Shown: one piece after another, positions 7,874 through 38,185 of the stretch
Layout: every line of letters begins with the position of its first letter
How positions within the stretch are numbered: position 1 is the stretch's first letter
Origin: an uncultured Rhodospirillaceae bacterium
GTDB taxonomy: Bacteria; Pseudomonadota; Alphaproteobacteria; SP197
Assembly: GCA_937880925.1 (NCBI GenBank)
Contig: CALGGB010000136.1
Coordinates: 1-45,328, forward strand
Reading direction: 5' to 3'
DNA: 45,328 nt
The notes under the pieces: generated by a model
Told to the model about the DNA's origin: nothing
Database searches by the model: none
What the model saw: only the letters and a program-made list of their open reading frames with translations
Made by a program: the position numbers and the translations under genes

Positions 7874-9499
7874 ATGACCATCAATCTCGGGTTGCCCGAA
7901 ACCCAATGCCTGAAGCCGCGTATCACCGTCATCGGCGTCGGTGGCGCCGGCGGTAACGCGGTCAACAACATGATTGCGAGCGGGTTGAACGGCGTCGATT
8001 TCGTCGTCGCCAACACCGACGCGCAGGCTCTTGCCCATTCGGAGGCCGAGCGGCGTATCCAGCTTGGCGTGTCGATCACGCAGGGCCTGGGCGCAGGCTC
8101 GCGTCCCGACATCGGCAAGGCCGCGGCCGAAGAGGCCATGGAAGAGATCATGGAGCAGCTCATCGGCTCGCACATGGTCTTCGTCACCGCCGGTCTGGGC
8201 GGCGGCACCGGCACGGGTGCGACCCCGGTTGTGGCGCGTGCCGCGCGCGAGCAGGGTATGCTCACGGTCGGCGTCGTCACCAAGCCGTTCCACTTCGAGG
8301 GTGCCCAGCGCATGCGTCTGGCCGAGGAAGGCCTGCGCGAGCTGCAGCAGTTCGTCGATACCCTGATCATCATCCCCAACCAGAACCTGTTCCGCGTCGC
8401 CAATGACAAGACGACCTTCGCGGACGCGTTCAAGCTGGCCGACGACGTGCTTCACGCCGGCGTCCGCGGCGTCACCGACCTCATGGTCCAGCCCGGCCTG
8501 ATCAACCTCGACTTCGCGGACGTGCGTACCGTGATGAGCGAGATGGGCAAGGCCATGATGGGCACCGGCGAGGCCGAGGGCGAGCGTCGCGCGCTGGAGG
8601 CCGCCGAGGCCGCCATCGCCAACCCGCTGCTCGACGAGGTTTCGATGAAGGGCGCACGCGGCGTGCTCATCAACATCACCGGCGGTTCCGACATGACCCT
8701 GTTCGAGGTCGACGAGGCCGCGAACCGGATTCGCGAGGAGGTCGATCCCGACGCCAACATCATCTTCGGCGCCGCGTTCGACGAAGGCATGAACGGTTCC
8801 ATGCGGGTCTCGCTGGTTGCCACCGGCATCGAGGCCGAGGGCATGGCCGCCAATCCGGTCGGCCGTCCCGCGCTGACCGCCATCGCCGGCGGCCAGGCTC
8901 AGCGGGTCGCTTCGCCCGCACCCATGGCGGCCAATGTGATCGCGGCCAAGACCCAGGGCCAGCATGCCCTGGCGCTCGATACCTCGGCGGTTGCCGAGGA
9001 GCAGGCTGAACTGCAGGAAGTGGCCGACAACCCAGCGCCCGAGCCGGTTGCCGTCGCGCCCCAGCCTGCTGCTGCCCCGGCTCCCCGTGCCTTCTCCTTC
9101 CTTGGACGCACCGATACCCGTCCCGAGGCGGAATCCGAGAAGGCGGAAGGCGACAGCTTCATCCCCGAAGCCCCGGTCGCGGCGCCGCGCAAGCCTGCGG
9201 TCCAGCCGCAGCAGGCCGACCCGATGGGTTCGGCAGCGCTTGCCAACAATGGGGCCAAGGAGGCCCGCAAGCCCACGCTGTTCGAGCGGATGACCGGTCA
9301 GGGCCGTCACCGCGAGTCTGCGCGTCAGGAGCCTGAAATCCAGCAGGCTGCTGCCCCGCGTCCCGCCCCGGCGGCAGCCCAGCCTGCTCCGCGTCCGGCC
9401 CCGCAGCCGGCGCCGCAGGCAGAAGCCAGAATGGAAGTTCAGGCGGTTGAGGACGACGTTCTCGACATCCCGGCCTTCCTCCGTCGCCAGGCGAACTAA
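7874..9499 (+). CDS. ftsZ: Cell division GTPase FtsZ
   Basis: Tubulin-family GTPase of 541 aa that forms the cytokinetic ring. The nucleotide-binding core covers about residues 13-320 and shows [13 protein letters not shown] (about 18-30), the tubulin signature GLGGGTGTG (about 107-115) and the T7-type synergy segment [15 protein letters not shown] near 211. It is followed by a roughly 200-residue Ala/Pro/Gln-rich, probably disordered linker, as is usual in alphaproteobacteria. The conserved C-terminal peptide [14 protein letters not shown] would bind FtsA and other partners. The ATG at 7874 follows GGAGG at 7861-7865. Two hairpins upstream suggest its expression is set separately from ftsA. 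Confidence 0.97.
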
Positions 9500-34560: not shown

Positions 34561-35964
<1,404 letters not shown>

Positions 35965-36032: not shown

Positions 36033-36404
36033 TCAGCGTTTGCGTCGTTTGGCCCGCGCCCGCCTGGCGGCGCGCAGGGCGGCTTCGGCCCAGTCGATCA
36101 GGCGCGCGCGGTCGGCCCAGACCTCGTCGGGCACCGACAGGAAGGAGAGTTCCACCGGCTTGCCCTGGCGCTGATAGACGAAGGGCCGGGCGCCGCCTTC
36201 CTCGAACATGGCGCGGGTCTCGGGGTCACTTTTCAGCCACAGGGTCTGCTGGAAGGTGAGCGCAACCATGGCGTCGTCGAGAAAGATGCCGTGGCCGCCG
36301 AACATGCGGCGCGCCACCACGGGCCCCAGCGGCATGAGGGCATCGACGGCGCGGGCGGCGAAGTCGGCCTTACTTTTTGCGGAAGCGGTCGAGCGTAACG
36401 ACAT
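36033..36404 (-). CDS. TfoX N-terminal-domain protein
   Basis: Protein of 123 aa with a single TfoX-N domain: DALMPLGPVVARRMFGGHGIFLDDAMVALTFQQTLWLKSDPETR (about residues 19-62) and VELSFLSVPDEVWADRARLIDWAEAALRAA. The basic end is RRARAKRRKR. Full-length TfoX/Sxy proteins, which regulate competence in gammaproteobacteria, have an extra C-terminal helix-hairpin-helix domain that is absent here. Single-domain versions are common and of unknown role. The frame extends far upstream, but ATG 36404 is where domain similarity starts; this start overlaps the sspB 3' end by 35 nt, suggesting co-expression. Confidence 0.85.
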   Translation of the reverse strand: MSLRSTASAKSKADFAARAVDALMPLGPVVARRMFGGHGIFLDDAMVALTFQQTLWLKSDPETRAMFEEGGARPFVYQRQGKPVELSFLSVPDEVWADRARLIDWAEAALRAARRARAKRRKR

Positions 36405-36861
36405 TGTCGGATGCCGCGGTGGGCGGCGCCGCGTCGTCTTCGGTGGGCGCGATCTGTCCGGCCGGCTCGGGTGCTGCCTGACCGTCATCGCCGTCGCCGT
36501 CCTCGACCTGCGGACGGAACTGCAGGCCGAACTTGACGCTGGGATCGACAAAGGCGGTCACCGCGCCATAGGGCACGACCAGGATCTGGGGCGTCTGGTT
36601 GAAGGAAAGCCCGACGGAGAACCCGAAATCGTCGACCTTCAGGTCCCAATACTGGTGCTGCAGGACAATGGTGATCTCCTCGGGGTAGCGCGCCTTGAGA
36701 TCGGCGCTGACCACGGCCCGGGGATGGTCGGTGCGGAAGGTGATGTAGAAATGATGGTCGCCGGGCAGGCCGAACTGTTCGGCATGGCGCAGGGCCTTGA
36801 CCATGACGCCGCGCAGGGCCTCGTCAACCATGTGGTCGTAGAACAGTTCGTTGTCGGCCAT
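36370..36861 (-). CDS. sspB: ClpXP adaptor SspB, alphaproteobacterial type
   Basis: Protein of 163 aa. The folded substrate-binding domain covers residues 1-118 (MADNELFYDHMVDEALRGVMVKALRHAEQFGLPGDHHFYITFRTDHPRAVVS...). An acidic Pro/Ala-rich linker (about 119-150) and a conserved C-terminal ClpX-binding module (DNVVTLDRFRKK) follow. In alphaproteobacteria such as Caulobacter, SspB tethers ssrA-tagged proteins to ClpXP. Here it lies about 30 nt downstream of the tmRNA gene on the same strand, so reader and writer of the degradation tag are adjacent. No terminator is visible between them, which suggests read-through from ssrA. The 3' end overlaps the TfoX-like gene. Confidence 0.93.
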   Translation of the reverse strand: MADNELFYDHMVDEALRGVMVKALRHAEQFGLPGDHHFYITFRTDHPRAVVSADLKARYPEEITIVLQHQYWDLKVDDFGFSVGLSFNQTPQILVVPYGAVTAFVDPSVKFGLQFRPQVEDGDGDDGQAAPEPAGQIAPTEDDAAPPTAASDNVVTLDRFRKK

Positions 36862-36892
36862 GCGCTGTCCTGCCCCTTGCGGACCGGAAATG

Positions 36893-37154
36893 AGTGGAGG
36901 GCTTCTGTTGCCCGGTGCCCTCCGAACCGCGCTTATCGCTACTTACGCAGCGACAGCGTACGCCTCATTGTCGTTGGCGTTTGTCATTGACCCGATAACG
37001 GCGGAATCATACCGGGCAAAAACCACGTCTTTACCGTGCACGTCGAGCCTGGTTCGCCCCCCAAGAGAGAAATGGTGGAGGCGGCGGGTACTGCCCCCGC
37101 GTCCGCAACACTTATTTCACGTGGCGTTTATCGCCATAGTCCGGCGAGCCGAAC
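36893..37154 (-). ncRNA. ssrA: tmRNA, circularly permuted two-piece form
   Basis: On the minus strand the parts come in permuted order. First is an acceptor piece with a T-arm-like stem GCGGG/CCCGC and a 3' strand CGCCTCC-A-CCA ending at 37073. Next is a short intervening loop (37062-37072). Then the coding piece starts GGGGGCG (37061-37055), which pairs with CGCCTCC to form the 7-bp acceptor stem. It continues with a tmRNA D-like TCGAC element (near 37044), ACGTGG able to pair with CCACGT in the acceptor piece, a pseudoknot-like CCCG/CGGG region, the tag ORF and a hairpin GGAGGGC/GCCCTCC (36896-36923) enclosing CCGGGCAACAGAA. tmRNA with SmpB rescues stalled ribosomes. Outer ends are estimates; SmpB is not in the window. 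Confidence 0.9.
36943..36978 (-). other. tmRNA tag-peptide reading frame
   Basis: Eleven codons from GCC (36976-36978) to GCG followed by TAA (36943-36945) encode ANDNEAYAVAA. The ANDN start and the hydrophobic AVAA end match the alphaproteobacterial tag pattern; the C-terminal AA is the ClpX recognition end. The resume codon is taken as GCC by comparison with known tags. Confidence 0.9.
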
Positions 37155-37160
37155 ACTGCA

Positions 37161-37189
37161 GATATAGGCGATCCTGACGGGATTTCCAA
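37161..37189 (-). promoter_or_regulatory. Predicted sigma-70 promoter of ssrA
   Basis: On the minus strand TTGGAA (37184-37189) and TATATC (37161-37166) are separated by exactly 17 nt. This would start transcription near 37154, shortly upstream of the tmRNA acceptor piece. It is the best-matching promoter pair I noticed in the window. Confidence 0.6.
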
Positions 37190-37194
37190 CGTGC

Positions 37195-37223
37195 TTGGCC
37201 GCAGGGCAGGCCGTCGGTATGGT
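37195..37223 (+). promoter_or_regulatory. Predicted promoter of thyX
   Basis: TTGGCC (37195-37200) and TATGGT (37218-37223) are separated by 17 nt and point toward thyX, whose start is 39 nt further on. It lies back to back with the ssrA promoter, with 5 nt between the two -35 elements. Confidence 0.5.
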
Positions 37224-37261
37224 GCGCCAATCACTCTCCAGACCGACCGGAAGCCACCGGA

Positions 37262-38185
37262 ATGCCGCTGACAGCCGAACAGGCCGCCGATATCGACGCC
37301 CAGCGCGCCCAGAGCGCGCCCACCAGGCGCGCCGTTTCGCCCGAGCTGGAAGAGATTCTCTACGAGGCCCTGCCCGTGCTCGACCACGGTTTCGTCCGGG
37401 TGGTCGACTACATGGGCAACGATGAGGCGATCGTGCAGTCGGCGCGGGTTTCCTATGGCCGCGGCACCAAGTCGGTGAGGAACGATGCCGGGCTGATCGG
37501 TTATCTGATGCGCCACCGCCACTCGACCCCCTTCGAGATGTGCGAGATCAAGTACCATGTGAAGCTGCCGGTGTTCGTGGCGCGCCAGTGGATCCGTCAC
37601 CGCACGGCCAACGTGAACGAGTATTCCGCGCGTTACTCCATCCTCGACCGGGAATTCTACATTCCCGCTCCCGCCCAGCTTGCCGCGCAGTCGACCGCCA
37701 ACCGCCAGGGTCGCGGTGACGTGCTGGAGGGCGAGGAAGCCGCATGGGTGCTCGATACCCTGCGGCGCGACGCCGAGACCGCCTACGACCACTATGAGAC
37801 TATGCTGAACGAGGGTGAGGGCGCCGATCCCGATCGCGCCGGTCTGGCGCGCGAACTCGCGCGCATGAACCTGCCGCTCAACATTTACACCCAGTGGTAC
37901 TGGAAGGTGGATCTCCACAACCTGTTCCACTTCCTCTCGCTGCGCGCCGATCCCCACGCCCAGTACGAGATCCGTGTCTATGCCGACGCCATGCTCGAAA
38001 CGGTGAAGCGCTGGGTGCCGCTGGCCTATGACGCCTTCATGGAAAACCGCATGGGTGGGGCCTCAATGACCGCCGGGCAGATCGCCGTGCTGCAACGCAT
38101 GCTGGCCGGCGAAGAAGTGACCAGGGAATCGAGCGGATTGTCCGCGCGGGTGTGGGACGAACTCCAGGCGGTAATACGGACGTGA
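37262..38185 (+). CDS. thyX: Flavin-dependent thymidylate synthase ThyX
   Basis: FAD-dependent enzyme of 307 aa making dTMP from dUMP with methylene-tetrahydrofolate and NADPH. The ThyX signature RHRX7S is present as [14 protein letters not shown] (residues 112-125). [30 protein letters not shown] lies just before it, and [41 protein letters not shown] near 213-253 supplies the conserved His/Arg dUMP contacts. No ThyA is visible in the window. ATG 37262 follows a weak AGCCACCGG stretch. The stop TGA overlaps the GTG start of the next gene (GTGA). Confidence 0.96.

Follow-up and report, generated by a model that had tools for sequence, protein, structure and literature searches.

The window analysed here is a 45,328-nt stretch from the genome of an uncultured Rhodospirillaceae bacterium, and the minus strand between its genes sspB and thyX holds a complete, circularly permuted two-piece tmRNA gene (ssrA). 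The Rfam alpha_tmRNA model (RF01849) matches this strand at 36893–37193 with 252.5 bits (E-value 2.4e-72, gathering threshold 50) over its entire length (model positions 1–355), a second model, tmRNA_permuted (RF04321), matches at 36943–37135 with 148.1 bits, and ARAGORN independently reports a permuted tmRNA with the tag ANDNEAYAVAA*. An earlier note, made from the sequence of the window, had listed the landmarks of a two-piece tmRNA on the minus strand and had named the alpha_tmRNA model and the permuted mode of ARAGORN as checks; both gave the hits just described, and every landmark it listed is present by RF01849, ARAGORN or direct reading. Its remark that ORF-based annotation would leave the region blank holds for ORF callers only, since ARAGORN and Rfam detect the gene immediately. 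The gene is single-copy in the 4.3-Mb genome (genome-wide search), and a nearly identical tmRNA occurs in a sister genome (G289). This is an ordinary alphaproteobacterial permuted tmRNA gene, and we call the object ordinary because permuted tmRNAs and the alphaproteobacterial type of SspB have been described before and the gene is picked up by standard RNA tools.

The permuted order is seen directly, with the CCA-ending 3' piece encoded ahead of the 5' piece that contains the tag frame. The acceptor RNA (37073–37154, minus strand; RF01849 and direct reading) ends in CCA at 37073 and is 82 nt long if it starts at 37154. It is followed by an excised segment of 11 nt, TTTCTCTCTTG (37062–37072, minus strand; direct reading and RF01849 alignment), and by the coding RNA (36893–37061, minus strand), which begins with GGGGGCG at 37061; the 5' end of this piece was taken from the acceptor stem and the 3' end, uncertain by several nucleotides, from RF01849. 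ARAGORN places the 3' end of the permuted tmRNA at 36852, running past the sspB start codon (36852–36861), and the Rfam end (36893) is the more plausible of the two. The tag frame, ANDNEAYAVAA plus a stop codon, lies at 36943–36978 (minus strand; ARAGORN and direct reading). The acceptor stem, GGGGGCG/CGCCUCC by direct reading, contains the alanine identity determinant, a G.U at the third base pair.

In all these respects the gene resembles known members of the family. The permuted tmRNA of alphaproteobacteria, its two-piece processing and its tag are well established (PMC11915505; PMC7335160; PMC2873474), and processing into two stable RNAs is known in Sinorhizobium meliloti (PMC2873474) and Orientia (PMC7335160). 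The RF01849 tmRNAs of Caulobacter, S. meliloti and Orientia share with the present one the order of acceptor piece, excised loop and coding piece, a tag of the form ANDN...AA and a full-length match to the model, and the tRNA-like piece of S. meliloti was mapped as 82 nt (PMC2873474), equal to the acceptor piece predicted here. Compared with the class median, the excised segment is 11 versus 34 nt and the coding piece about 170 (to the model end) versus 180 nt, and we see no essential difference from the other RF01849 tmRNAs.

Just ahead of the acceptor RNA there is a −35/−10 pair conserved in an alignment of 16 genomes of the same family, with TTGGAA as the −35 (37184–37189, minus strand) and, after a 17-nt spacer, TATATC as the −10 (37161–37166, minus strand), the latter also backed by the class consensus and by a matrix score of 14.3; the predicted transcription start lies at about 37154. 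Over 135 loci of the class the consensus is CTT..A, some 17 nt, and CC-TATATT, with the CTT block kept 22–24 nt ahead of the −10. It resembles the housekeeping sigma70 consensus of S. meliloti, CTTAGAC-n17-CTATAT (quoted in PMC2245857), and the alignments thus predict a conserved sigma70-type promoter before ssrA. Roughly the first 35 positions of RF01849 (37158–37193 in the window) are probably promoter DNA (−35/−10) and not transcribed RNA, because a start at 37154 yields exactly the 82-nt acceptor RNA mapped in S. meliloti. Of the interval given in the earlier note, 36862–37190, the 5' part (about 37158–37190) likewise probably belongs to the promoter and not to the RNA.

Downstream on the same strand, and in the same direction, follow sspB, tfoX and fumC. 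The sspB gene (36370–36861, minus strand) encodes a 163-aa protein of the alphaproteobacterial type (PF04386, 143.4 bits against a cut-off of 27; PDB 2nys with an E-value of 3e-38, 2qas and 2qaz). SspB acts as an adaptor, handing tagged proteins over to the ClpXP protease. The founding paper on the alphaproteobacterial protein is reportedly Lessner 2007. The SspB-domain sequence is like that of Caulobacter (2qas, 2qaz) and Agrobacterium (2nys), with no essential difference, and the flexible linker and the C-terminal tail VVTLDRFRKK, predicted to bind ClpX, agree with a consensus (VV.LD.FRKK) found in most of 116 class homologues. The gene begins 31 nt past the end of the RF01849 match, with AGGA 6 nt ahead of the ATG, so that the gap of about 30 nt and the position of ssrA directly upstream of sspB, both claimed earlier, are borne out by Rfam, ARAGORN and PF04386. 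The end of sspB is overlapped by 35 nt by tfoX (36033–36404, minus strand; TfoX N-terminal domain, PF04993), and a class II fumarase gene, fumC, follows (34561–35964, minus strand; PF00206 and PF10415). On the other side of ssrA lies thyX (37262–38185, plus strand; PF02511, 193.9 bits), which is divergent from ssrA, the two sharing a short promoter region (37194–37261).

By family alignment and hairpin/U-tract analysis, ssrA ends in a hairpin at 36896–36923 (minus strand) whose arms, GGAGGGC and GCCCUCC, enclose a 14-nt loop; behind it comes a weak U-tract, ACUCAUUUCC. A generic scan of the region found no canonical terminator between ssrA and sspB, in line with the earlier statement that none is visible, yet ssrA does end in this hairpin with its weak U-tract. 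For the class as a whole we used an anchored measure, the number of T in the best 8 of the 16 nt behind the last ssrA hairpin, since a simple comparison of T-runs gave a weak signal. By this measure the U-tracts behind ssrA are above the local background across the class (mean 4.0 versus 2.6 T), so some termination there is likely. They are also poorer where sspB is near, with 3.5 T where it begins less than 60 nt away versus 4.87 T where it is more than 300 nt away or absent (p = 0.007 with one genome per family), in a comparison that is post hoc, chosen after the data had been seen, and whose statistics ignore phylogeny. The difference survives adjustment for GC content (t = 3.07 over all loci, phylogeny again ignored). 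Among the loci with sspB downstream, gap length and U-tract show no correlation (Spearman 0.07).

Scoring with a matrix derived from ssrA promoters gives 14.3 at the ssrA promoter itself and −3.2 or less at every other position of the minus strand up to sspB, and sites of its type appear between ssrA and sspB in 0 of the 117 class loci with sspB downstream. Trained on TATA-containing sites, this matrix covers a narrow range, and weaker promoters would escape it. The generic scan for promoters and terminators returned no minus-strand match and is uninformative, because the ssrA promoter itself (8 of 12) also goes undetected. By eye, a TTGACT-N16-TACTGT-like sequence can be seen ahead of sspB in the ssrA–sspB gap of two genomes, G123 (locus L124) and G227 (L086), which suggests a putative separate sspB promoter in lineages with longer gaps.

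These data bear on the view that ssrA and sspB are two independent units, the former ending at its terminal hairpin and the latter being transcribed from a weak promoter of its own in the coding piece of ssrA or in the gap. Besides the class-wide excess of U-tracts over background, it could call on a generic 8-of-12 site inside ssrA (37033–37006, with the end of the −10 at 37006) and on Orientia, where a Northern blot revealed a discrete 372-nt tmRNA precursor (PMC7335160); this points to a defined end near ssrA in that organism. The internal site is, however, at chance level (0.8 such sites are expected), no internal site exceeds zero with the ssrA matrix, the 31-nt gap is too short to have room for a promoter plus a leader, and the U-tract of the window is poor. 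We consider two separate units less likely here than one. Given the short gap, the searches that found no strong second promoter site and no canonical terminator, and the weaker U-tracts near sspB, the likeliest arrangement, as judged from sequence comparison, is one in which transcription partly reads through ssrA to reach sspB.

The gene order was followed through a survey of 289 alphaproteobacterial genomes, with RF01849 matches in 266 and PF04386 matches in 253. A comparison of the ssrA–sspB order in related genomes had been proposed in the earlier note, and it gave sspB after ssrA on the same strand in 16/16 genomes of the same family; among the best 150 tmRNA loci of the class, 117 have sspB on the same strand within 1.5 kb downstream and 99 have it within 150 nt, with a median gap of 73 nt. 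As the loci sampled are the better-scoring tmRNA matches, these counts under-represent reduced genomes. At locus L039, sspB follows ssrA at a distance of about 170 nt, again in the same orientation. Where the positions of both genes are listed (107 genomes), sspB lies downstream of the tmRNA on the same strand in 98, on another contig in 8 and on the opposite strand in 1. In a subset with one locus per family (68 loci), sspB adjoins ssrA in 56/66 families. In each of four genomes (G096, G109, G134 and G207) RF01849 matches twice, which may reflect a second tmRNA gene or a fragment of one, and five genomes (G030, G049, G098, G134 and G174), all at least 96% complete, have a tmRNA and no SspB match, a possible loss of the adaptor. 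At locus L043 (1823–2350) the sspB coding sequence runs across two frames, owing to a frameshift or an assembly error.

It is evident that the linkage of ssrA and sspB is far beyond chance, yet the two genes belong to an inherited block in which an unrelated gene is also found. Of the 41 genomes with thyX in the one-per-family subset, 31 have it in divergent orientation no more than 1.5 kb away, and in the same subset fumC lies downstream within 1.5 kb in 1/52 and within 5 kb in 18/52. As thyX is functionally unrelated, divergent and nearly as well conserved, part of the linkage is inherited synteny, and conserved adjacency by itself is no proof of functional coupling. One could go further and see in the adjacency the mere remnant of an ancestral block (thyX<, ssrA>, sspB>, fumC>) without regulatory meaning, a view that would agree with the uncertainty expressed in 2007 about functional associations of such small RNAs with their conserved neighbours (PMC2245857). 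Against it, sspB adjacency is kept in 29/37 loci without an adjacent thyX (one per family), and the U-tract varies with the distance of sspB, so that synteny devoid of any regulatory meaning appears doubtful; inherited synteny and co-transcription are in any case compatible and not mutually exclusive. A tmRNA pseudogene, or a resemblance due to chance, is an extremely improbable reading of the match: no point in its favour was found, the model matches over its full length, the acceptor stem with its G.U, the CCA, the tag frame and the promoter are intact, the gene is present once in the genome, and a near-identical RNA occurs in the sister genome.

SmpB is the obligate partner of tmRNA. In other bacteria the smpB–ssrA neighbourhoods likewise place the tmRNA gene beside one that acts in the same pathway; in Alphaproteobacteria, in contrast, the linked partner is SspB, the downstream proteolysis adaptor, and smpB is unlinked, being found within 5 kb of ssrA in 0/63 loci of the one-per-family subset. 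In the source genome (G000), smpB (contig C209, 9246–9452) is cut by the end of the contig at 9452, which accounts for the truncated SmpB of this genome.

Returning to partial read-through, our explanation is that a working permuted ssrA is the promoter-proximal gene of an attenuated unit ssrA-sspB-tfoX(-fumC) that is processed afterwards, and we regard it, with co-transcription as its inferred element, as somewhat more probable than its negation. It builds on the identified gene with its pieces, on the promoter consensus and on the gene order, together with the finding of no strong second promoter site and no canonical terminator. RNA polymerase would start at about 37154 and the precursor would fold, RNase P and tRNA 3' nucleases then presumably removing the 11-nt loop, as in the known biology of the family, so that the 82-nt acceptor and the coding piece of about 170 nt would remain paired. 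At the terminal hairpin of ssrA, whose U-tract is poor, a fraction of the polymerases may read through into sspB, whose message, made from the ssrA promoter, would be less abundant than the tmRNA and would be detached by 3' processing. The earlier proposal that ssrA and sspB form one unit gains from the conserved order, the only good promoter lying before ssrA, the short gap and the weaker U-tract, and is weakened by the insufficiency of adjacency as proof, thyX being linked almost as often; the one-unit interpretation is plausible and better supported than it was from the window sequence alone. More tentatively, and as a possibility that we do not favour outright, ssrA–sspB may be an attenuated unit across the class, in which the terminal hairpin would be both a part of the mature RNA and a partial terminator setting the tmRNA:adaptor ratio, with the U-tract weakened by selection when sspB is close and strengthened when it has moved away.

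The conservation of both genes flanking the S. meliloti tmRNA in its relatives was noted in 2007 (PMC2245857), in a paper that regarded a functional association as uncertain because smpB is unlinked and in whose text a search does not find sspB; S. meliloti ssrA also precedes a co-oriented gene, SMc01450 (PMC2573895). In the literature covered, which is incomplete (Lessner 2007 may mention the neighbourhood), we found nothing on point about linkage or co-transcription of ssrA and sspB. Both the tmRNA and its adaptor are familiar, but as far as we found, no paper treats their class-wide order as a unit. Co-transcription, if real, would couple the capacity for tagging to the delivery step at ClpXP through the arrangement of the genes, and deleting ssrA in Caulobacter, Sinorhizobium or a relative might then have polar effects on sspB that have escaped notice.
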